This document shows positions 21,661 to 34,011 of a stretch of DNA of 35,487 nucleotides, in pieces. Within the stretch, counting starts at the first letter, position 1; every line of letters begins with the position of its first letter. The notes below the pieces were generated by a model. The model worked only from the letters and a program-made list of their open reading frames with translations. It was not told where the DNA came from and did no database searches. The stretch is from NCBI GenBank assembly GCA_004292605.1, contig RDXK01000105.1:1-35487 (forward strand). The letters run 5' to 3'. A program made the translations under genes and the position numbers. This DNA comes from Bacteroidota bacterium (GTDB taxonomy: Bacteria > Bacteroidota > Bacteroidia > Chitinophagales > Chitinophagaceae).

Positions 21661-22698
21661 CTATTTATTGGCTAATTGGCCACAGGCAGCATCAATATCT
21701 TTCCCTCGGCTTCTACGTAAATGGGCGTTTACCCGTTTACTTTGTAGGTACTGCATAAAAGCTTGCACCTTATCATCGCTAGGTTTCGATAAATTGAATT
21801 GGTCAATATTGTTGTACTCGATGATATTCACTAAATCGGCCGGTACTTGCCTGAATACCTTTACTAGTTCATCGGCATCTTGCTGTCCGTCGTTGAAATT
21901 ATTGAACAGTATGTATTCAAAAGTTATCTCGTTACCCGTTTTTTTATAGAAGTAATTTAATGCGGCAATCAGCTCTCTTATATTATTACTTTCATTAATA
22001 GGCATTATCTCGTTTCGCTTAGCATCGTTAGCGGCATGTAAACTCAGGGCTAATTTAAATTTCACATTATCATCCCCTAATTTCCGAATCATTTTTGCAA
22101 CACCTGCAGTAGATACGGTGATACGACGAGGGCTCATGCCCAACGCATCTGGCGACGTGATTTTTTCTACGGCTTTTAACACATTGGCGTAGTTCAACAG
22201 TGGTTCGCCCATACCCATAAATACAATATTGGTAAGGCGTTTTTGGTAGTGCTGTTCGCTTTGCTGATTTATTAGCACCACTTGATCTACTATTTCATCA
22301 AAGGTTAGGTTACGCTTTCTATCTATATAACCCGTAGCACAAAATTTACAACTAAGGCTACAGCCTACTTGGCTACTTACACAAGCGGTTTTTCGTTCGT
22401 CGGTGGGTATTAGTACGCCTTCTATTTTATGACCTTCGTGTGTGGCAAACCTTGTTTTTACGGTACCATCGGTGCTTACTTGGGTAGCATCTACCTTTAG
22501 GGCTGGCAAAGTAAAATGCTCTGCTAAAGTGGTTCTTAGCTCCTTGCTAAGGTTGGTCATAGCATCAAAACTATGGGCATGTTTTTGCCATAACCACTCG
22601 TGTACTTGTTTAGCCCGAAATTTTGGCAACTTACGTTTTTCAAAAAAAGAATTGATTTCCTCAGTACTTAAATGCCTAATATTCGGTAATGCCTGCAT
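21661..22698 (-). CDS. rlmN: Dual-specificity 23S rRNA/tRNA adenine-C2 methyltransferase RlmN
   Basis: Radical-SAM enzyme that methylates C2 of A2503 in 23S rRNA and A37 in some tRNAs. The ATG at 22698 gives 345 residues; a TTG at 22725 lies upstream of the likely promoter box and is rejected. The [4Fe-4S] motif is C113-x3-C117-x2-C120 (CSLSCKFC). The GxGEP SAM motif is FMGMGEPLLN. The methyl-carrying and resolving cysteines are expected at C339 (DAACGQLANK) and C106 (KTACVSSQ). It is convergent with the PAS gene, seven bases away, with no terminator between. Confidence 0.97.
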   Translation of the reverse strand: MQALPNIRHLSTEEINSFFEKRKLPKFRAKQVHEWLWQKHAHSFDAMTNLSKELRTTLAEHFTLPALKVDATQVSTDGTVKTRFATHEGHKIEGVLIPTDERKTACVSSQVGCSLSCKFCATGYIDRKRNLTFDEIVDQVVLINQQSEQHYQKRLTNIVFMGMGEPLLNYANVLKAVEKITSPDALGMSPRRITVSTAGVAKMIRKLGDDNVKFKLALSLHAANDAKRNEIMPINESNNIRELIAALNYFYKKTGNEITFEYILFNNFNDGQQDADELVKVFRQVPADLVNIIEYNNIDQFNLSKPSDDKVQAFMQYLQSKRVNAHLRRSRGKDIDAACGQLANK

Positions 22699-22702
22699 GC
22701 TG

Positions 22703-22710
22703 CAAAGATA
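22703..22710 (-). promoter_or_regulatory. -7 promoter element of rlmN, possibly giving a leaderless mRNA
   Basis: TATCTTTG on the minus strand is a perfect TAnnTTTG match and is followed by CAGC and then the ATG. Only four bases separate the box from the start codon, so the transcript would start at or inside the AUG region. The -33 region is weak. Confidence 0.5.
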
Positions 22711-23030
22711 TTGCACACAGGCCAAAATATAACCGAGTATTATTGGGTGGCAATTTGATAGTGAAAATGATGGGTATATTAACTCGAGTAAATCTCCGTT
22801 TACAAATCGATATAAATACTTTAGTGTAGAACGTTATAATTTTCGAGAGGTATCATATTTCACGCTCTCACATCGCTTAATAAAAAAAGATTTCAAGTCC
22901 CCTTTTGTGGCAATTTTAAATTTTGGTGATATTTTTTTTCAAGTGTAGAATGGCGTTCTCACAAATCAAACTACAATTCTATTTAACAAAATATTATTTA
23001 TTATATTTTAAAAACAAATAATAGACCAAT

Positions 23031-23038
23031 TATTTTTG
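23031..23038 (+). promoter_or_regulatory. -7 promoter element of the GLPGLI cassette
   Basis: TATTTTTG matches TAnnTTTG exactly and lies 41 bases before the ATG of the small secreted protein. The expected -33 position is an A/T run without a clear TTTG, so strength is uncertain. Confidence 0.5.
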
Positions 23039-23079
23039 AAAGCGCTCGGGGGTATTTTTTTACCTACAATAAATAAAAT

Positions 23080-23403
23080 ATGAAACACAAAAACACAACG
23101 ACAGGAAAACGCACAAACACCAGAAATCGCCTTTTATCGAAGGGATTAACATTCATTTTAGCATCGATATTTTCACTAAACGCAAAAACTTCATTTGCGG
23201 CAGAATTATCGAAAAAACAACAAGATCAAGTGAACGGAAGCGGAGTAATAGTAATGACTCATTGCGGAAAAGATGTATTCGTTTCGGTAGACCCAAATTG
23301 GCTTAGTCAACAGTCCGCTGAATACAGAAAAGGCTTTGCTCAAGGCGTAGCTACAGCTGCATGTGGATATCCACCGCCGAAATCTGTAGTAGCAGCAGAA
23401 TAA
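23080..23403 (+). CDS. Small secreted two-cysteine protein, unknown function
   Basis: No family is recognised. The 107 residues begin with a long basic N-region (1-21), then a hydrophobic segment LTFILASIFSLNA and a probable signal peptidase site at SFA-AEL (after residue 40 or 41). The mature part has about 67 residues and exactly two cysteines, C62 and C95, which could form one disulfide. Residues 42-55 (ELSKKQQDQVNGSG) resemble the end of double-glycine peptide leaders of the form LSKxxQxxxxGG, though with G-S-G instead of GG. The C-terminus is PPP-rich and ends AAE. It lies 34 bases before the GLPGLI gene and is probably co-transcribed with it. It could be a secreted peptide, a peptide precursor or an accessory periplasmic protein. 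Confidence 0.7.
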   Translation: MKHKNTTTGKRTNTRNRLLSKGLTFILASIFSLNAKTSFAAELSKKQQDQVNGSGVIVMTHCGKDVFVSVDPNWLSQQSAEYRKGFAQGVATAACGYPPPKSVVAAE

Positions 23404-23437
23404 TTACATCCATCCCCCTAGCTTTTAATTTTATTTT

Positions 23438-24187
23438 ATGAAATCATCCACACGTTACCTAATATCTATTCTTTCAGCTGTTTTGTTTTATAAAACCACT
23501 CCAGCACAGCAAAAGTTTCTATACGAATTTACAAGGTCATACAAGACGGCCACTCCCTACAAAGAAAAATACGTACTACTTCACACACCTAAAACCTCGA
23601 TTTTTTATAGTTTAGATTTATTGACGCTTGACTCTATTAACCAAGCCAATAACGTACTTAGCGACAAAGATTATAACGACGAAATCATTGAACATAACGG
23701 TGAAACAATCCATGTTTATGGGGTAGTACTGATTAGTCGCTATCAATACCAAGACACAGTTAACAACATAGAGTGGAAACTGTATACTGATTCCACAAAG
23801 CGAATTCAGGGCTTCAAATGCACCAAAGCAACAGCCAATTTTAGAGGAAAAATATGGGAAGTTTGGTTTACAGCAGATATACCTATTGGCCTTGGGCCTT
23901 GGAAACTGCAAGGGCTACCAGGACTCATTGTAGAAGCAAAAACAGCTGATGGAAAACTTGCTTATAGCCTTCTAGGCACAAAACTAAGTTCATCATTGGC
24001 TCCTTCACTTGTAAGCATTTCCAAACGTTCAAAAAATATTAGTAAAAGCGAGTTTTTATTTCTGAAAAACGACTTCTACAAAAACATGAACAAGTACTAT
24101 ATGGCTGAACCATCGTATAGTAATATTGGAGTTGATTTTAGTAAACCAATGTCAATGCCAAAACCACCTTATTTCTTTGAAGAGTAG
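23438..24187 (+). CDS. GLPGLI family protein
   Basis: A 249-residue exported protein of the Bacteroidota GLPGLI family, whose biochemical role is not established. The signal peptide is MKSSTRYLISILSAVLFYKTTPAQQ. The naming motif is intact in LGPWKLQGLPGLIVEAKTAD at about residues 152-171, preceded by the conserved VWFTADIPIGLGP and by FKCTKATANFRGK, also typical. The last third is polar with Lys/Ser-rich segments and ends PPYFFEE. The outer-membrane barrel gene most likely begins within its last 11 bases, so the two products are made together. Periplasmic or outer-membrane-associated location is inferred from the signal peptide. Confidence 0.9.
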   Translation: MKSSTRYLISILSAVLFYKTTPAQQKFLYEFTRSYKTATPYKEKYVLLHTPKTSIFYSLDLLTLDSINQANNVLSDKDYNDEIIEHNGETIHVYGVVLISRYQYQDTVNNIEWKLYTDSTKRIQGFKCTKATANFRGKIWEVWFTADIPIGLGPWKLQGLPGLIVEAKTADGKLAYSLLGTKLSSSLAPSLVSISKRSKNISKSEFLFLKNDFYKNMNKYYMAEPSYSNIGVDFSKPMSMPKPPYFFEE

Positions 24188-26846
24188 TATATACCATAGA
24201 ATTATATTGGTACTTACCATTGCTATAATACCTACGTTTATCTTCTCACAGATTCGTTCGGTACATGGAATAGTAGTAAACAAGCAACGGGAACCAATTA
24301 GTGGAATACAAGTAATGGTGTGTAGTGCAGATACGGCCATTATTGCGTTTAAAACCACAGGTTCAAATGGGGTTTTTAAAATAAACTATACTGATACCGC
24401 CCTACGTGCACAGCTACTAATTTTTACATCGTTGAATTATAAAAAAACAATTGTTTCTGTACAAAATAATTTTAGAAATGGCGATACTACAGTACTGGAT
24501 TCTCAAGTGTACGAATTACCCAACATTCAAGTGCAAGCTTCACCCATACAAATAAAAGGTGATACTATTACGTATAATGCAGCTACGTTTGCAGGTAAAC
24601 TAGATAGAGTAATTGGCGATGTTTTACAAAAAATTCCAGGCGTTAGCGTGGATGCTAATGGCCAAATTACCTACCAAGGCGAACCTATTAACAAGTTTTA
24701 TATAGATGGTAAAAACCTACTAGAAAATGGCTACGGGCTGGCAACAAAAAATGTTCCCGCCGACATGATAGACAAGATAGAGATTTACGAAAAACATCAA
24801 CCTATAAAAATTTTGGACGGTATACAAACCAGTAGAAAAGCAGCGGTAAACATTACTACAAAAAATAAATATAAAAATAAACTTACAACACAAGTAAACG
24901 CAGCGGTAGGCGGTAAGCCACTTATTTGGGATGCTTCGGTGCTGGGGCTAGCCATCCATAAAAATCAACAAGCACTTCATCTTTATAAATCTAATAATAT
25001 AGGCAAGGCAGCGCTAAAGGAACTACAAACGGCGCCGGTGTATGGAGAGGATGGCTTAGAAAAACAAGAAAATTTACCAAGATATCTATCGGCATTGTAC
25101 ACAGCTAACCAAAGCATGCTACAGCAGCGTTTCGTTTTCAATGAAACACATGTGGCCAGTACCAATATTCTACGACCATTAACCTCAAAATATGATATAC
25201 GTTTGCAAGCAAGTGCAGGTATAGAAAGTTTACAACAACAGCAAGGAGCAAACACCTTATTGCTATTACCTACCGATACTATACGTATAGTGGAAGATGC
25301 ACAGTTTAAAACCCAAACTCGAAAAGTAACTGCAACCGCCACCATTACCGCCAATACCCATCAAGAATACTTTAATAATAAGCTGAATATCATCTTCGAT
25401 AGCGATAGGGAATTTGCCGGGCTCAGAACCAATAATTCCAATAATAATCAATCGTTAAATACCCATCGCCTACAAATAAGTAATCACCTCACTACGGTAA
25501 AAAAATGGAGGAATACATTGGTTGAAGTTCAGTCGATTAACTCACTAAAACGTAATGATGAGGTACTTATGCTTGCACCACCTCTTTTTGCGTTAAAAGG
25601 AAATTCATTTACCTCGGAGTTACTTCAACAGTTTAATCAAACAGTGTTTACTAGCCACCAAACAATATCGTTCAGGAAACAATTTAAAGGTGTACAAATA
25701 GCACAAGTATTAGGAATAAAATACGAATATCGTCAGGTAACCAGCCAAATAAGGCAAGCCGATTCTACTGGCCAATCGGAGATACTGCCAGACAGTTTTC
25801 AGAATAACTCACATTGGCGGCATGGAAGTGTATACAGCACTACCCAAATGAATTATAGAACGGGGAGATGGTGGATTAATGCCAACGTGCCAGTGATTGC
25901 AAATACTATCAATTATAATCCTCAGATACAGTCAAGTGTAGTTCGAAGTATGCCGATAGTTTTTAATCCGGCAGCCACGGTAACTTATGCTGTTGCACCT
26001 CTACAAGAACTTTTTATAACTAGTTCAAAAGAAACAACTTTTGGAAACTTACTCGATGTTGTGGGCGGCTATATTGTAAGGAATAACAGATTTATTAGTT
26101 CCAATCAATCACCGCTAAGAAAAACGAATAGTATCAATACCACTGTAGGTTATAGCTATAAAAATCAACTATCTATGTTGTTTGGTAAAGTATCAGTCAG
26201 CTATTTCACCCTGCAAACAAATGTACTTACGCAAAATTCTTTTGATGGTTTTATTAATAAGCAACTGGGCATATTAACTAATAATAATCAGCAAACATTG
26301 GCCCTATCTGCCGATGTAGGAAAATACTTTGAGAAAACTAAAACTACCATTAAGGCTGCTGGCGGTGTCAACTTTAATGCTGGCATACAAGGTATTGAAT
26401 CAGCATTATTTAAATACAGGAGTAATACACAATCCTATAACGTCATTGCACAGCAAAAATGGAATAAATATTTACAAACAGAGTATACTGGCACTCTAAC
26501 TCTGCAAAATTTTCAAACGGTTGGTACCACTTTACATTTTACAAATCAACTGTTTAATTCCAAAATTTCTGTTACCGCAAGCACGGCATACCGATTAAAT
26601 TTTCAATTAGTTGGCGAAGTACAAAGCGGTTCATTAGCGGGTCAACGGATAACACCTTTGTTTTTTAACGATGTGGTAGTTAAATGGCAACCCAAGACAA
26701 ACGGAGGCGATATATGGTGTAGCATTTTTAACGTCTTTAATCAAACCAATTTATTCGATGTGAGTGCTAATCCGTTAGGAACTAGTATTACGTATATACA
26801 ATTACGACCACGACAAATACTACTAGGTTATTCCTTTAAGTTATAA
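24177..26846 (+). CDS. Outer-membrane beta-barrel protein with carboxypeptidase-regulatory-like domain (TonB-receptor-like)
   Basis: The best start is a TTG at 24177 inside the end of the GLPGLI gene. It yields 889 residues and a clean signal peptide (MKSSIYHRIILVLTIAIIPT, then FIFSQ). No ATG exists near the signal sequence; an upstream TTG at 24126 would add 17 polar residues. A CarboxypepD_reg-like beta domain follows (VHGIVVNKQREPISGIQVMV). Next is a plug-like region (RVIGDVLQKIPGVSVDANGQ to DKIEIYEKHQPIKILDG), then about 650 residues of alternating beta strands. It ends in an aromatic/hydrophobic last strand, RQILLGYSFKL. No SusD partner is adjacent. It probably imports or exports a substrate handled with the GLPGLI protein, but the substrate is unknown. 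Confidence 0.88.
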   Translation: MKSSIYHRIILVLTIAIIPTFIFSQIRSVHGIVVNKQREPISGIQVMVCSADTAIIAFKTTGSNGVFKINYTDTALRAQLLIFTSLNYKKTIVSVQNNFRNGDTTVLDSQVYELPNIQVQASPIQIKGDTITYNAATFAGKLDRVIGDVLQKIPGVSVDANGQITYQGEPINKFYIDGKNLLENGYGLATKNVPADMIDKIEIYEKHQPIKILDGIQTSRKAAVNITTKNKYKNKLTTQVNAAVGGKPLIWDASVLGLAIHKNQQALHLYKSNNIGKAALKELQTAPVYGEDGLEKQENLPRYLSALYTANQSMLQQRFVFNETHVASTNILRPLTSKYDIRLQASAGIESLQQQQGANTLLLLPTDTIRIVEDAQFKTQTRKVTATATITANTHQEYFNNKLNIIFDSDREFAGLRTNNSNNNQSLNTHRLQISNHLTTVKKWRNTLVEVQSINSLKRNDEVLMLAPPLFALKGNSFTSELLQQFNQTVFTSHQTISFRKQFKGVQIAQVLGIKYEYRQVTSQIRQADSTGQSEILPDSFQNNSHWRHGSVYSTTQMNYRTGRWWINANVPVIANTINYNPQIQSSVVRSMPIVFNPAATVTYAVAPLQELFITSSKETTFGNLLDVVGGYIVRNNRFISSNQSPLRKTNSINTTVGYSYKNQLSMLFGKVSVSYFTLQTNVLTQNSFDGFINKQLGILTNNNQQTLALSADVGKYFEKTKTTIKAAGGVNFNAGIQGIESALFKYRSNTQSYNVIAQQKWNKYLQTEYTGTLTLQNFQTVGTTLHFTNQLFNSKISVTASTAYRLNFQLVGEVQSGSLAGQRITPLFFNDVVVKWQPKTNGGDIWCSIFNVFNQTNLFDVSANPLGTSITYIQLRPRQILLGYSFKL

Positions 26847-27008
26847 AGTATAACGCCTACAAAGCCACAGTTCTAGTAGCTCAACAGGTCATCTTAATAC
26901 AGCCAACTACTGTACAGTGCAATTGTGGCAATGCGATACTGATCCTACTATGTTACATCATGCGTTCATACTACCGCAGCGTAATTGTATGTATGGGAAC
27001 TCCAACCC

Positions 27009-29498
27009 CTAATTCCCTACCGTAAATACAGCATTGGTAAATAGTAATTTTCCGTTCTCCCAAAACAACCTGAACAACGGATTATCGGCCAAATACACAA
27101 TGTTTCCTGCACCCATTTCCTGCACACCAAGCACTAGCTGATCTTTTAAATTTGGTTGCAAATCGCTTCCTACAAAACCGGCTACCTTATTGTCTTTTCT
27201 AAGATATCCCACATTCCAGCCATCTTTTAAAAACTGGTACGTATTACCGTCTTGCTTTAAGGTGTAGTAATTACTACCATAGCCAAATGCAAGCGGATGC
27301 GTATTATCTAATTGTACACGGTAAATAGCGCCGCTAATGCCCTCTTTTAAAGCATCTCGCTCCCTATCGGCATACTTTTTTAAATATTGCTCATCTGCCT
27401 TCTTGGCATCGGGTGCTTCTTTTCTTTTTAAACCAAAATCCTCATCCGCCATTTGTGCCACCGCATTTTCTAGGGCAATAATTTTACCACCGCCACGTAC
27501 AAAATCCTTCAACTTGGCTTGAGTATTTTTATCGCCTAACCATTTGTAATAGCCATCCGGCAAAATAAGTACGTTCGTTTCTTTCAAATTCAATCTACCA
27601 AAATCGCTGGCATTTACCATATTTACCGGGTACTCTAATACCTTATCAAAAAAGTTCCATACTTCACCGGCGCCCAGGCTACTTACACCTTCGCCCGTAA
27701 GTACGGTTACCTTGGGCTTTTGTAAAGTAACTACATCCGGACTGCCAAAATCTGGCCCCTTATCCATAAAACCCGTTTCTAGCGTTACTACCTCTTCGGT
27801 ACCCAATAATTGCAAGTATCTTGGCATTATTTCCGTTTGCCACTTAGCGGTATTATTATTTTTCAAAACCAATAAACTACCCGCCTCATATTGTTTGCCT
27901 TTATAGGTAATGGGCTTTTGTGCCATGCGTACTTTAAAACCATCTTTGATAAGGGTAGCCATCGCTTTGGCCGACGCAAAATTGGTATAAGGCAATAAGT
28001 ACCCATAAGCATTTTTACCCATTTGTGGCATATTGGTTTGCACAAAGGCCTTAGCGTTAACAGGTGTATTTACGGCAAAAGTTTTTAAGCCGTATACATA
28101 AGGTAAACTCCATGCTGTAATATCGTAAGTAGCACTATCCGTTAGTTTGCTTTTGGGTTCCATCAGCACTTGTAATAGTGTGCCTTGTAGCTGTGCAGTG
28201 GGTATTACCACACTGTAATTTTGGGTAGCAATGGCAGTTTCTTTGCCCTCAAAATATTCGTAACCTTTACCAGTAATATTATCGTTGGTTAAGGTAAAAT
28301 TGATACCATTTTTGGCTAATAAAGCCATGAACGGTTGTAAACTAGTAAGGTAATTACTAGTTACCACATAGCTTTTTACACCATTGGCTTTGGCTCCACT
28401 ACGAGCCGCTTCAAAAAATTTCGAGAATTCAGTAACCAAGTTACTAGCGTTGGCCGATGCCATTTCCACGGTACTCATACCCGTAGTGTGGTGGTGGGCT
28501 ACCCTATCTACTAAGGTAAGCGTATCGCCATCTTCGGTTTGTACGGCCAAGCCTCCTCTGCTATGGCCGCCCTGCTCGTAAGTCATCCCAATACTTCCAT
28601 TGTAGGTAGGGTAAGTATCGCCATAGCTTGGGTAAAACAAATCGAAGCGTTCTTTGGTAAAATATAACCATCCTTTTTCATCAAAATACTTGGCGTGGTT
28701 TTTACCTATCTGTGTTTGAAAATTTCTTTGCCAAGGGGAAATTACATCATGAAAAGGTTCTGCGGCTGGTGCAAAATAATAGGGTTCGTTAAAGCCTTGC
28801 TCATGAAAATCTACATGCACGTGTGGCATCCAAGTTTGGTAAACTTTTATACGCTGCTGGGTTTCTACTTGTGTTTGCCAAGCCCAATCTCGATTTAAGT
28901 CGAAATTATAATGGTTGCTTCTTCCACCAGGCCAAGGTTCCATGTGTTCTCTGGTTTGTGGATTGGCGTTGCTACCAGCTCCCACCATACTATTGAACCA
29001 GTTTACATATCTATCTCTACCATCGGGGTTTAAACAAGGGTCAATCAATACCACGGTATTTTTCAGCCAGCTTTTAGAAACCGTATTGGCTGGGTTCACC
29101 AGTTCGTACAGCGTTTGCATAGCGGCCTCCGAACTACTAGGTTCGTTGCCATGTACGTTATAGCTTAACCATACAATAGCATGGCTAGCAGCTGTGGTAG
29201 ATTTACCGTTTATAGCGGCAATATGATTCGCCTTAATGTTTGCCAGATTACCTACATTTTCGGCGCTTGATACGGTTAGTAAATACAACGGCCGGTGTTC
29301 ATTGGTAGTACCGTATTGTTCCATTTTTACGGCCGTAGGAAACGTGTTGGCCACATATTGGCAATAGGCCACCACTTGATGGTGTGGGGTGTATCTAGTA
29401 CCTAAAGTGTATCCTAAATATTCGCTGGGTGATTGTAGCGTTTGTGAAAACATGGGGCCGGCAATGGCCATGAGTAGTATTACCAAAAACTTTTTCAT
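27009..29498 (-). CDS. Secreted M14 family zinc metallopeptidase
   Basis: An 829-residue exported carboxypeptidase-type enzyme. The signal peptide is MKKFLVILLMAIAGPMFSQ. The M14 zinc site is HGNEP with H116 and E119 (YNVHGNEPSSSEA); the third ligand is in HVHVDFHEQGFNEPYYF. Substrate-binding motifs NPDGRDRY and NFDLNRDWAW are present. The region from about residue 600 (VTVLTGEGVSSLGAGEVWNF to LILPDGYYKWL) resembles a class I glutamine-amidotransferase-like fold often found at the C-terminus of long Bacteroidota M14 proteins. It probably acts in the periplasm or outside the cell on peptides. A near-consensus promoter lies at 29531-29559. Confidence 0.93.
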   Translation of the reverse strand: MKKFLVILLMAIAGPMFSQTLQSPSEYLGYTLGTRYTPHHQVVAYCQYVANTFPTAVKMEQYGTTNEHRPLYLLTVSSAENVGNLANIKANHIAAINGKSTTAASHAIVWLSYNVHGNEPSSSEAAMQTLYELVNPANTVSKSWLKNTVVLIDPCLNPDGRDRYVNWFNSMVGAGSNANPQTREHMEPWPGGRSNHYNFDLNRDWAWQTQVETQQRIKVYQTWMPHVHVDFHEQGFNEPYYFAPAAEPFHDVISPWQRNFQTQIGKNHAKYFDEKGWLYFTKERFDLFYPSYGDTYPTYNGSIGMTYEQGGHSRGGLAVQTEDGDTLTLVDRVAHHHTTGMSTVEMASANASNLVTEFSKFFEAARSGAKANGVKSYVVTSNYLTSLQPFMALLAKNGINFTLTNDNITGKGYEYFEGKETAIATQNYSVVIPTAQLQGTLLQVLMEPKSKLTDSATYDITAWSLPYVYGLKTFAVNTPVNAKAFVQTNMPQMGKNAYGYLLPYTNFASAKAMATLIKDGFKVRMAQKPITYKGKQYEAGSLLVLKNNNTAKWQTEIMPRYLQLLGTEEVVTLETGFMDKGPDFGSPDVVTLQKPKVTVLTGEGVSSLGAGEVWNFFDKVLEYPVNMVNASDFGRLNLKETNVLILPDGYYKWLGDKNTQAKLKDFVRGGGKIIALENAVAQMADEDFGLKRKEAPDAKKADEQYLKKYADRERDALKEGISGAIYRVQLDNTHPLAFGYGSNYYTLKQDGNTYQFLKDGWNVGYLRKDNKVAGFVGSDLQPNLKDQLVLGVQEMGAGNIVYLADNPLFRLFWENGKLLFTNAVFTVGN

Positions 29499-29659: not shown

Positions 29660-30064
29660 CTATGCCAGCACGGTCCAGTCCTCTAGCACAATTCCATGAA
29701 TACGTGTAAAATGTGATGTATTATTGGTAACCATTACTAGTTTATGTGTAACGGAAGTAACCCCAATTAAAAGGTCAAAATCATCCATTGGTATTCCCGC
29801 TTTCTGTAGTCGTGCTTTTTCCGACGCATACAAGTCCAGCGAATGATAAATAGGAAGTATTTGTACACCGGTTAAAAAATAGTCGAGTATTACTTTGTTC
29901 TTCTCAAATTTCTCACTTTTTGCTACGCCAAATTTCAGCTCAGCGAGTGTTATCTCGGAGATATAACATTCATTCAACGTTAATTCACCAAATTTTTTGT
30001 GCAAATCAAACTTGCCTTTCATGTAATAAATGGCAATATTCGTATCAATTAAATATTTTTTCAA
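29660..30064 (-). CDS. PIN-domain ribonuclease toxin (VapC type)
   Basis: A 134-residue PIN-domain protein, predicted to be the RNase toxin of a type II toxin-antitoxin module. The acidic metal site is visible: D7 (YLIDTNIAIYY), E42 (ITLAELKFG) and D94/D95/D97 (IPMDDFDLLIG). The fourth-position polar residues are in MVTNNTSHFTRI. Its start codon overlaps the stop of the antitoxin gene by four bases (ATGA), the standard arrangement. All active-site residues are present, so it looks functional. The RNA target cannot be predicted. Confidence 0.92.
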   Translation of the reverse strand: MKKYLIDTNIAIYYMKGKFDLHKKFGELTLNECYISEITLAELKFGVAKSEKFEKNKVILDYFLTGVQILPIYHSLDLYASEKARLQKAGIPMDDFDLLIGVTSVTHKLVMVTNNTSHFTRIHGIVLEDWTVLA

Positions 30065-30507: not shown

Positions 30508-33500
30508 TTATTTAAGCGTAAGCACCACTCTTCTGTTTTGTTGGCGGCCTTCAGCGCTTGCATTATCTGCTATCGGTTGAGCATCACCAAAACCTTTGGC
30601 AGTCATGCGTTTTGCATCTACACCTAACTCAGTCAAGTAACGTTTTACGGTTTCAGCACGCTGCTGACTTAAACGTTGGTTCAAGGCTTTAGAACCTGTA
30701 TTATCCGTATGTCCTTCAATATCCAATAACACATCTGGGTTTGCCTTTAACTCTTCTAAAATAGTTACAAAAGCGGTTTTACTTTCCAAGGTCAATTTTG
30801 CACTATTGGTAACAAAGTATACGTTTTGTGCAGCCTTAGTAATTTTCTGTTGTGGTGTTTCTGGGCAGCCTGCATTAGCCGCTATACCAGCCACAGTTGG
30901 GCACTTATCTAACTCATCGTTTACACCATCACCATCGGTATCAGGTACTGGGCAGCCATCGTACTTGGCTACACCATATTGGTTAGGGCACTTATCATCC
31001 TTATCAGCTACACCATCACCATCCGCATCAGGGCAGCCATTCAAAGCTCTTGCACCTACTACGGTTGGGCACTTATCGTCTTTATCAGCCACGCCATCGC
31101 CGTCGGTATCAGGGCAACCATTTAAACTTTTTGGTCCGGCAGCGTTCGGGCAAGCATCTACATCATCATTAATACCGTCACCATCTGTATCTAATACTTT
31201 AGGAGCGTCTGCTACCATCGGCGCTACAGGTACTGCTTTTAATTTCTTATTGCCTTTTAAATCGGTTAAATCAAAAGCGGCATTGGTATACCAGTAACCA
31301 CCGTTGAAACCAAACTGTGTTACGTTACGGCTGTATACAAATCGGCCTTCGCCAGTGTTGGCAAAATTCGATAAGCGGTCAGGGTAAACGTCAGCAATGT
31401 TTTGAGCACCTATAGTTAAGTTAATGAAGTAAACCGGGCGGTAGCTTACGGCTACATCGGTTACTACACGTGGACTAAAAGTTTGATCCCTTGAACGATC
31501 AGTACCGTTAAACACCTGACCAACTTCGCCAAAACGAGTAGCACGGGCATTCAAATTCCACTTGCCTATGCGGTAGTTTAAACCTAAAGTAATTTTGCTA
31601 CGAGGCTGACCAATTTCAATACGGCTTCTTTCTTCAATATTGAATAAGGTATTGCTGTTCAAACTATCGTTAGGTAATTTAGTGCTTTGGTTTACACCAG
31701 TAACCTCGGTTCTATTCAAGTTTGCCGCAGCAGTGATATCTAAAATACCTCTACCCACACGGTGGTTGCTACTGTAAACAATGTCTATACCTTGTGTTCT
31801 TGTGTTGATAGCATTTGAAAAGAAGATAGCTGAGTTAACATCTGGGTAAGCTTGTAAAATGGCATTTACAGCAGGGTTGGTACGGGTAAACTGACCAGAA
31901 AGTACAATCCTATCTTTAATGTCTATCAAGTAAGCATCTACCGTTAAGCTAGCATTTCTTGCTAACTTAGAAGTAAAGCCAATGCTGTAGTTCATACTTT
32001 TTTCAGCTGTTAATCTTGGTACACCAAAACCTGCACCTACTACGGCACTATTGTTTCTAAAGGTACCTTGCTGTAATGGCACTAAGCCAGCGGTAGTATT
32101 TACAAACACGGTGCTTATAGCGCTAAAATATTGCTGGTGCATACTTGGTGCTCTAAAACCGTTAGATACCGAACCACGGATAGAAAACTTATCAGAAAAC
32201 TTGTAACGAGCGGCTAATTTACCGGCTACATTACCACCAAAATCGGTGTACTTCTCGTAACGAGCAGCTGCGTTTACTAAAAACTTATCGGTTAAATCGG
32301 TTTCAATATCTACGTATCCAGCACCTACTCCACGTGTTTCATTTACTGCGTTTACAGGTTGGAAACCAGGAAACACCTGAGCTCCACCTACACGGCCACT
32401 AGTAGGATTGTAGTTTCTCCAGCTAGCTTCTTCACCAGCTAAAATTTGGTAATTATCAAACCTAGCTTCCGTACCAAATGCTATGTTGAAACTTTTCAAG
32501 TTCATTTGCTTACCAAAATCTTTCGACAAGTTTAAGTTAGTAGTAGATTGGTTAAAGCGTAGAGTACCAGCATCAAACTGTGTTTGAGCGGCTGTACCTA
32601 AAGCAAATTGAGAAGCGTTATTAGAATTTGCTACGTTGAAATTAAATTGGTTACCACCGTATACAGTTCCTAAATCCCACTTCCAACCATTTTTGGTAGT
32701 ACCGTCAAAAGTTACACCGGCATATTTATCTTGAATAATAGAGCGTATTTGTGGTAAGAAACCATCAGGATACAAAGGCTGAATTACTTGAGATGTTTGG
32801 AAAGGATAACGGAAGAAACCCGCTGCCTGACCATTTCTACGGCCGTAACCACCCATAAAACTTAGGTTGGTATTTTTACTCAATGGTATACCACCATTCA
32901 AAGCAAAATTGTAGTTATCTACTTTAGAGTTACCTACTTGCATATTGTTATCTCTACTAAATCCACGTTCTGCAATGGTTCTATTATCTAAAGCGATAAT
33001 AGAATCACGTTGCGGACCAGCAGGAAACGCACCATAGTTAAAATAAACACCTGCACTATAGCTACCATCTGGGCGAACACCATAACGGCCTACACGGTTG
33101 GTACCTTCTCTTAAACGTATATCGGCAAATAAATCTAAGTAACCACCTTTTTTACCCAAAGCAAAACCTTGGTTGGCTTGTATACCCGTAGTTTGACCAT
33201 CGCCCATATAAAACTGGCCACGGTGAATATTGATATTGGTTTTCTTAACGTCTTTTTTCAACACCACGTTAATTACACCCGCGATGGCATCAGAACCGTA
33301 TTGCGATGCAGCACCATCTCTTAATACTTCAATTTTATCAATAGCACTTGCAGGAATCGAGTTTAAATCGGTTCCTACACTACCTCTACCAATGGTTCCG
33401 TTTACATTTAGCAACGCAGTGTTATACCTACGCTTACCGTTTACCAAAACCAACACCTGATCCGGACCTAAGCCACGCAAAGTAGCAGGGTCAATATGAT

Positions 33501-34011
33501 CGGTTCCATCGGCCACTGTTTGACGAGATGAATTGAAAGAAGGAGCCACAAAATTGATCATTTGTGTAGGCTCTATTTGTCCGGTTAAGGCTAGTTCTTT
33601 TGAGCTAAATACATCTACAGGCGCCACGGTTTGCGTACTACTACGCACCACAGCACTACGAGTACCTACTACCGTTACCGATTTTTGATCGTTTAATTTT
33701 TCTAATACCGCATCTAGCGTAAAAGTAGCTCCAGGTGCTAGGTTTACCACAAATGTTTTAGGTGTGTACCCCACATACGAAACAATTACGTTGTAGGTTC
33801 CGGCGTTTACCTTTACTTCAAAGGCGCCCACATTGTTGGTTCTGGCTCCGCCGCCTTTACCTTCTAAAATTACCGAAGCACCTTCTAAAGGCTCTTTGGC
33901 ATCCTTCACGGATCCTTTAATGGTTCCTAACTGTGCAAAAACGAAATTTACGAGCAGCAAACTAACGATCACACTCCCCAACTTTAACAGTACTGAGGTA
34001 GATTTTCTCAT
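30508..34011 (-). CDS. TonB-dependent receptor fused to thrombospondin type 3 repeats and an OmpA domain
   Basis: A 1167-residue outer-membrane protein. A signal peptide (about 1-26) is followed by a CarboxypepD_reg domain (GTIKGSVKDAKEPLEGASVI, to about residue 108). A TonB receptor plug comes next, with LRGLGPDQVLVLVNGKRRYN and IEVLRDGAASQYGSDAIAGV. A barrel of roughly 690 residues ends near 917 in GGYWYTNAAFDL, where an ordinary receptor would stop. A 23-residue linker then leads into four calcium-type TSP3 repeats (DTDGDGxxDxxDxCP, 941-1050). The OmpA domain (about 1063-1167) has the peptidoglycan-binding pattern IEGHTDNTGSKALNQRLSQQRA and ends QQNRRVVLTLK. The reading frame is uninterrupted. 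It likely imports a substrate while tied to the cell wall; the substrate is unknown. Confidence 0.93.
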   Translation of the reverse strand: MRKSTSVLLKLGSVIVSLLLVNFVFAQLGTIKGSVKDAKEPLEGASVILEGKGGGARTNNVGAFEVKVNAGTYNVIVSYVGYTPKTFVVNLAPGATFTLDAVLEKLNDQKSVTVVGTRSAVVRSSTQTVAPVDVFSSKELALTGQIEPTQMINFVAPSFNSSRQTVADGTDHIDPATLRGLGPDQVLVLVNGKRRYNTALLNVNGTIGRGSVGTDLNSIPASAIDKIEVLRDGAASQYGSDAIAGVINVVLKKDVKKTNINIHRGQFYMGDGQTTGIQANQGFALGKKGGYLDLFADIRLREGTNRVGRYGVRPDGSYSAGVYFNYGAFPAGPQRDSIIALDNRTIAERGFSRDNNMQVGNSKVDNYNFALNGGIPLSKNTNLSFMGGYGRRNGQAAGFFRYPFQTSQVIQPLYPDGFLPQIRSIIQDKYAGVTFDGTTKNGWKWDLGTVYGGNQFNFNVANSNNASQFALGTAAQTQFDAGTLRFNQSTTNLNLSKDFGKQMNLKSFNIAFGTEARFDNYQILAGEEASWRNYNPTSGRVGGAQVFPGFQPVNAVNETRGVGAGYVDIETDLTDKFLVNAAARYEKYTDFGGNVAGKLAARYKFSDKFSIRGSVSNGFRAPSMHQQYFSAISTVFVNTTAGLVPLQQGTFRNNSAVVGAGFGVPRLTAEKSMNYSIGFTSKLARNASLTVDAYLIDIKDRIVLSGQFTRTNPAVNAILQAYPDVNSAIFFSNAINTRTQGIDIVYSSNHRVGRGILDITAAANLNRTEVTGVNQSTKLPNDSLNSNTLFNIEERSRIEIGQPRSKITLGLNYRIGKWNLNARATRFGEVGQVFNGTDRSRDQTFSPRVVTDVAVSYRPVYFINLTIGAQNIADVYPDRLSNFANTGEGRFVYSRNVTQFGFNGGYWYTNAAFDLTDLKGNKKLKAVPVAPMVADAPKVLDTDGDGINDDVDACPNAAGPKSLNGCPDTDGDGVADKDDKCPTVVGARALNGCPDADGDGVADKDDKCPNQYGVAKYDGCPVPDTDGDGVNDELDKCPTVAGIAANAGCPETPQQKITKAAQNVYFVTNSAKLTLESKTAFVTILEELKANPDVLLDIEGHTDNTGSKALNQRLSQQRAETVKRYLTELGVDAKRMTAKGFGDAQPIADNASAEGRQQNRRVVLTLK
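30862..31191 (-). repeat. Four tandem TSP3-type repeats inside the receptor-OmpA fusion
   Basis: Four units of 27-29 codons encode DTDGDGIND, DTDGDGVAD, DADGDGVAD and DTDGDGVND cores, each followed by a DxCPx8-10GCP tail. Units two and three are the most alike at the DNA level. The repeats are in frame, and the acidic cores are expected to bind calcium. Confidence 0.9.

Follow-up and report, generated by a model that had tools for sequence, protein, structure and literature searches.

The window analysed here is a 35,487-nucleotide contig (RDXK01000105.1; contig G000:C279 in our numbering) from the draft genome of a Bacteroidota bacterium of the family Chitinophagaceae (GCA_004292605.1; 2.97 Mb in 331 contigs), and it carries a cassette of three plus-strand genes for a small secreted protein with two cysteines, a GLPGLI protein and an outer-membrane barrel. 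The same peptide–GLPGLI–barrel architecture is found far beyond chance among related loci, and the small protein is probably the cargo of the module. The cassette may therefore be best explained as a peptide-handling system that forms a two-step export route, a reading to which we assign a probability of roughly one half.

The cassette is flanked by two minus-strand genes, rlmN (21661-22725) and a gene for an M14 carboxypeptidase (27009-29498). The small open reading frame (ORF; 107 residues from an ATG, 23080..23403) is followed after a gap of 34 bases by the GLPGLI gene (249 residues, 23438..24187), which in turn overlaps the barrel gene (889 residues, 24177..26846) by 11 bases. The barrel frame is open from a TTG at 24126, and the TTG at 24177 is its most plausible start because the signal peptide then stands at the N-terminus. 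All three products begin with a signal-peptide-like stretch, and the small protein contains exactly two cysteines, C62 and C95. The original prediction, made from the letters of this DNA, had described three tightly spaced genes for exported proteins headed by a small two-cysteine product, and the ORF coordinates agree with it; its further proposal, that the genes form a single envelope system whose cargo might be the small protein, is strengthened by the conservation of the architecture across Bacteroidota.

Small cysteine peptides upstream of GLPGLI genes

Of 149 sampled genomes of the host family, 133 encode GLPGLI proteins, and a tree of 68 such proteins from this family contains two clades separated by a 100/100 branch. 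Class I (32 rows) comprises barrel-then-GLPGLI pairs and is nearly universal in the family, where pairs of this order without a peptide, such as L023:1730-5264 (L numbers denote loci), are common. Class II (27 rows, including the window protein) has 20 members in GLPGLI-then-barrel order. A single-sequence scan of genome contigs with the window GLPGLI protein gave no match; a class II profile run over GTDB contigs retrieved 80 loci from Bacteroidales, Sphingobacteriales, Chitinophagales and Flavobacteriales, among which GLPGLI-then-barrel order is the rule, and matching loci are present in gut, oral, soil and marine Bacteroidota. The conserved neighbourhood that had been suggested was found as a module type recurring across the phylum, whereas close relatives show no orthologous counterpart of this gene order. 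Two class II loci, L120 and L175, lie on contigs labelled as Candidatus Gracilibacteria and Staphylococcus sp. metagenome bins, and are probably mis-binned Bacteroidota.

Upstream peptides were counted if encoded on the same strand within 320 bases upstream, with a Sec-like or GG leader and at least two cysteines in the mature part. Signal peptides were called by a hydrophobicity rule of our own rather than by SignalP, and the rule was widened for long n-regions, such as that of the window protein, before the final count. A small cysteine-containing peptide precedes 34 of 168 class II GLPGLI genes (100 loci), compared with 15 of 401 other large ORFs drawn from the same loci as a within-genome contrast (odds ratio 6.5, p 1.7e-9). 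This p value is optimistic, since neither genes that share a locus nor loci that are related count as independent, and the 30 of 100 loci with at least one class II upstream peptide provide the safer figure. Among class I controls, a peptide was counted before none of 41 GLPGLI genes and before 2 of 43 barrels. Three of the 34 calls look spurious (the L021 frame, L144 and L157), and real peptides were missed by the rule in L156, L126, L020, L068, L072 and L153. Peptide–GLPGLI units are also repeated before one barrel (three times in L184, twice in L156, and in L123); L121 has three such units, with no barrel within the sequence stretch examined.

The peptides further share a cysteine pattern. 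C-G followed 15-45 residues on by a second C occurs in 15 of 22 upstream Sec-type peptides, compared with 1.6 expected in shuffles, and we define the CG..C class accordingly (secreted leader, C-G, ~15-45 residues, C). The window peptide fits this class, its core running from C62-G63 to C95 (23263..23364). Plasmid records were searched by GLPGLI or barrel only, once the pattern had already been defined. A 7.9-kb plasmid of Prevotella corporis carries rep, mob, a toxin-antitoxin pair, a 61-residue CG..C peptide, GLPGLI and barrel, and p1 of Flammeovirga kamogawensis carries peptide, GLPGLI and barrel. On a Flavobacterium plasmid, four peptides have signal sequences 90-100% identical and mature parts only 17-41% identical. 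The plasmid of Flammeovirga pectinis (L244/L249, NZ_CP034564.1) encodes on one strand a redoxin, a peptidase-containing ABC transporter (PCAT), a two-cysteine GG-leader peptide, GLPGLI, LanC, a glycosyltransferase and a barrel, a lanthipeptide-like cluster in which no TolC or membrane-fusion gene is annotated. No peptide gene is annotated upstream of the plasmid GLPGLI–barrel pairs of Parabacteroides distasonis and P. nigrescens F0103. A 12.3-kb P. corporis plasmid (L238, NZ_CP118018.1, 3521-6733), which seems to have arisen from the 7.9-kb plasmid by fusion, has an intact GLPGLI–barrel pair and a decayed copy with the barrel in several ORFs. A peptide profile (A5) run over 295-385 Bacteroidia genomes gave few matches above noise, the weaker ones being mostly chance; of two new matches at E<=1e-3, one, in a further genome, has GLPGLI 30 bases downstream and then a barrel, and the other lies inside a glycosyltransferase gene.

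The host genome itself holds five further clear GLPGLI genes. Three other contigs (L020, L021 and L022) have GLPGLI followed by a barrel paralogous to that of the window, each preceded by a small secreted cysteine-bearing ORF, which in L022 encodes 93 residues with 6 cysteines. The fifth gene, L023, has the reversed order and no peptide. In L020, a 72-residue peptide with four cysteines is followed by a TolB_like propeller protein (PF15869) and a cysteine-containing thioredoxin-like lipoprotein; L020:717-6168, L068 and L072 represent a second cassette type, with a four-cysteine peptide (GGCxYxG...C...C...C), a TolB_like/6-blade propeller, a thioredoxin-like lipoprotein, GLPGLI and barrel. The cysteine-rich peptide gene of L021 (2968-3277, contig C157) is split over two frames at a G run, either because the gene is broken or through an indel in the assembly, and a terminator-like hairpin with a T run separates this peptide ORF from GLPGLI.

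The slot before GLPGLI is filled by either of two peptide kinds, which differ in their leader. GG-leader peptides with at least two cysteines occur in the Bacteroidales loci L184 (three times, matching TIGR04149), L140, L181, L156, L129, L193 and L194, and the L244 peptide likewise has a GG leader. C39/PCAT genes are present in L132, L133, L156, L181 and L194, and VKOR-bearing proteins in L156, L181 and L194; in L181, a C39-VKOR gene sits between GLPGLI and barrel, and there are several GLPGLI genes per peptide. On a Riemerella plasmid (L247, 3534-4765), a solo GLPGLI gene without a barrel lies directly 3′ of a gene for a DCC1-like thiol-disulfide oxidoreductase, and so has a thiol-redox neighbour as well. 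Gaps between peptide and GLPGLI genes fold more stably (median z -4.55, n=22) than comparable same-strand gaps (-0.57, n=116; p 4.6e-6), and several of their hairpins have T-rich tails. Such a hairpin looks like a partial terminator that would permit an excess of peptide, as expected of cargo.

Predicted properties of the three proteins

The small protein is predicted to carry a Sec-type signal peptide with a long basic n-region (approximately residues 1-41, 23080..23202; read from the sequence and by the hydrophobicity rule), with likely cleavage near SFA-AEL and no GG leader. It belongs to no family in Pfam, NCBIfam, PHROG or PADLOC, and a search of close relatives with this protein alone gave no credible match, its sequence being too diverged. 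Its model (mean pLDDT, the predicted local distance difference test, 69) places a beta hairpin (55-59/65-69) around the CG and a helix (80-94) that leads up to C95; a fold search with this model returned nothing meaningful (Z at most 2.6).

The GLPGLI protein is a clear member of the TIGR01200/Porph_ging (PF09697) family (130 bits, E 1.1e-37, cut-off 50), for which the open-access literature searched describes no link with small peptides. It carries the GLPGLI motif at residues 159-164 (23912..23929), of which GLPG is invariant in class II, together with invariant W, G and P residues (GPWKLQGLPGLI; alignments A1 and A2). An AlphaFold2 model built from 36 sequences (pLDDT 83.7; predicted template-modelling score 0.79) gave its best VIA matches with the N-terminal domain of PNGase F-II (PNGF-II; Z 16.5) and with 7zgn (14.9). 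It also matched LolA (2w7q; VIA Z 8.7, root-mean-square deviation 3.8 over 141 residues), RseB (Z 8.4) and many further LolA/LolB chains, and Foldseek likewise returned many LolA chains (E 1e-5 to 1e-3). The model supports a periplasmic carrier-type fold of the LolA/LolB/RseB kind. The original prediction had also considered a peptide protected or processed by the GLPGLI protein; the predicted fold suits a carrier more than an enzyme that processes the peptide. The likeness to Lol carriers and RseB/MucB lies in this predicted fold (VIA Z 8-9) and in the periplasmic location, whereas sequence identity is ~8%, no lipoprotein-sorting context is seen, and the closer fold match is the PNGase F-II domain.

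The barrel protein opens with a CarboxypepD_reg-like N-terminal domain (24258..24458, E 2e-4), whose profile matches solved N-domains of SusC-like receptors (9hfj and 6ytc). A TonB-box-like stretch, LPNIQVQA (24516..24539), is located before the plug in alignment A4, the family consensus from 15 barrel relatives being LxEVxVK. The Plug domain match (24579..24788; PF07715, E 5e-4) is weak, at 21.0 bits and below the gathering score of 23.9, and similarly weak plug matches occur in the barrels of L156 and L244; the Pfam scan gave no match of the window barrel to PF00593 (22-strand barrel).

A proposed export route and its rivals

In the proposed export route, the two-cysteine protein would be the cargo. 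It would cross the inner membrane through Sec here, and by means of a GG leader and, in several relatives, a PCAT elsewhere. In the periplasm the peptide would be oxidised, presumably by general enzymes in this organism and by dedicated VKOR or thioredoxin-like proteins in other cassettes. The LolA-like GLPGLI protein would then bind the peptide and hand it to the dedicated barrel, which bears the TonB-box-like stretch and would pass the peptide through the outer membrane or display it there. GLPGLI and barrel would together stand in for the membrane-fusion protein and TolC of colicin-V-type export. Peptide binding by GLPGLI and a TonB-driven barrel are both inferred steps, as is the outward direction of transport; export is favoured over uptake because PCATs co-occur with these genes, and because GLPGLI and barrel occupy the place of TolC and the membrane-fusion protein in clusters that have neither.

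Precedents exist for parts of this route. In Myxococcus xanthus, PopC secretion depends on the TonB-dependent transporter Oar (PMC6434023), a plug-and-barrel protein with a TonB box that has likewise been proposed to carry a polypeptide out of the periplasm; PopC, however, is a protease that lacks a signal peptide, and a GLPGLI partner has not been described for this system, whereas the putative cargo of the window would be a small peptide with a predicted disulfide, accompanied by a LolA-like gene of its own. TonB-receptor-like outer-membrane proteins have also been proposed as exporters of graspetides in Bacteroidetes (PMC8939145), although we noticed no ATP-grasp ligase in the cassettes studied here and that paper does not mention GLPGLI. 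Colicin V-type microcin/PCAT export and the Bacteroidales clusters for ribosomally synthesized and post-translationally modified peptides (RiPPs; PMC10352776) share small cysteine peptides, GG leaders and C39 transporters with the related cassettes; the window differs in its Sec signal, in the lack of a PCAT, and in having GLPGLI and barrel at the membrane-fusion/TolC place. The open-access literature that was searched mentions GLPGLI without a function, does not mention NVEALA or Porph_ging, and contains no description of an association of small peptide, GLPGLI and barrel; subscription papers and preprints were outside the search.

Several observations weigh against the export route. TonB-type barrels are best known for import. 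No upstream peptide is recognised for approximately 70-80% of class II GLPGLI genes, and class I pairs have none; with so many peptide-less pairs, GLPGLI and barrel must also serve otherwise, or their cargo may be encoded elsewhere. In a leave-one-out profile test, the window peptide has no significant link to the other peptides (E 14, rank 29 of 9846), and the peptides appear too diverged for a common ancestry of all of them to be demonstrable by sequence. The window cassette, flanked by rlmN and the M14 peptidase gene, includes neither PCAT nor VKOR, its 34-base gap between peptide and GLPGLI contains no hairpin, and its GLPGLI protein lacks the C-terminal NNPIEL common in class II. Finally, the LolA-like similarity of the modelled GLPGLI protein, at Z 8-10, would be compatible with a common fold and a different function.

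Among the alternatives, a bacteriocin-type cassette, in which the small protein would be antibacterial, GLPGLI its periplasmic immunity protein and the barrel an exporter or receptor, is unlikely, though the most probable of them. Peptide–GLPGLI units duplicate jointly, as toxin-immunity pairs do, the mature parts of the peptides change quickly while the signal peptides in front of them are conserved, the cassette is the main cargo of a small plasmid, and LanC, methyltransferase and PCAT genes lie nearby in relatives. An immunity protein would, however, hardly be as widespread without peptides as GLPGLI is, with class I nearly universal in the family, nor would the excess of GLPGLI genes over peptides in L181 be expected. 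We consider it distinctly unlikely that the peptide is secreted to bind a ligand (metal, lipid or signal) and recaptured through the barrel, with GLPGLI as periplasmic binding protein. TonB-dependent receptors normally import, the barrel has a TonB-box-like stretch and a plug-like domain, and a LolA-like fold could bind hydrophobic ligands; yet PCATs and GG leaders are export components, no inner-membrane importer adjoins those clusters, the peptide types are far too diverse for a single ligand carrier, and a cysteine pair engaged in a disulfide would not bind metal.

The fixed site of the small gene directly upstream and the tight spacing in the window would also suit a structural or regulatory subunit that is assembled with barrel and GLPGLI in the outer membrane rather than transported, and small subunits are common in barrel complexes. 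This is nevertheless very unlikely given the extreme divergence of the small proteins relative to GLPGLI and barrel, the two inner-membrane export routes, the presence of several peptides per barrel and of modifying enzymes in some clusters, and the lack of such a gene beside most barrels of the class. A chance or weak linkage, with a generic GLPGLI–barrel pair beside unrelated short secreted ORFs, would accommodate the many class II pairs without a peptide and the failure of profiles to prove peptide homology, but is highly improbable in view of the enrichment over matched controls, the frequency of CG..C, the reappearance of peptides at plasmid loci retrieved later by GLPGLI or barrel alone, and the A5 match that precedes GLPGLI by 30 bases and then a barrel. 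Three other candidates were set aside, namely cargo of type IX secretion (no sorting domain was seen at the C-terminus), a toxin-antitoxin system (the PIN/VapC gene at 29660 is separate from the cassette) and siderophore uptake (no such gene context).

Genomic setting and significance

The perfect -7 box that had been described as leading into the cassette, TATTTTTG (Bacteroidota pattern TAnnTTTG), is indeed present at 23031..23038 on the plus strand, 42 bases before the first ATG. The motif is not distinctive, occurring 32 times in the window compared with 50 expected by chance, and no -33 element was seen near it; only its position is suggestive of a promoter. An Rfam scan of 22600-27100 found no RNA family, and the phage and defence libraries (PHROG and PADLOC) gave no match.

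The cassette had also been described as AT-richer than its surroundings, like transferred cassettes. Its guanine-plus-cytosine (GC) content is indeed lower than that of the rest of the window (0.369 compared with 0.416), and is equalled in 8 of 318 same-size windows; paralogous cassettes elsewhere in the host genome are equally AT-rich (0.372-0.383), however, so that low GC is here a trait of the gene type rather than in itself proof of transfer, and it was dropped as evidence. Mobility finds better support in the plasmid-borne relatives and in a congeneric genome (80% complete) in which the cassette adjoins neither rlmN nor the M14 gene. Together these fit a gain by transfer, although loss or assembly gaps may also explain the absence. 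Beyond the M14 peptidase gene, the window contains an adjoining PIN/VapC-like gene (29660-30064, minus strand), matched below cut-off by tRNA(fMet)-specific VapC models, and a gene (30508-34011, minus strand) for a 1167-residue protein that fuses CarboxypepD_reg, TonB plug, barrel, thrombospondin-3 repeats and a C-terminal OmpA domain.

On a wider scale, we tentatively suggest that the cassettes may represent an undescribed system for peptide export across the outer membrane that extends through the phylum Bacteroidota, in which a LolA-like GLPGLI protein and a TonB-driven barrel would replace the membrane-fusion protein and TolC, and would receive hypervariable disulfide peptides delivered by Sec or a PCAT; if true, a first function could be assigned to GLPGLI proteins. 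The analysis places class II GLPGLI proteins with a partner barrel, with enzymes of the RiPP type and with small peptides that diverge rapidly and often bear disulfides, which makes their function directly testable. Class II cassettes also point to unmined secreted peptides of gut bacteria, and suggest a way through the outer membrane for peptides whose genes are not accompanied by one for a TolC partner.

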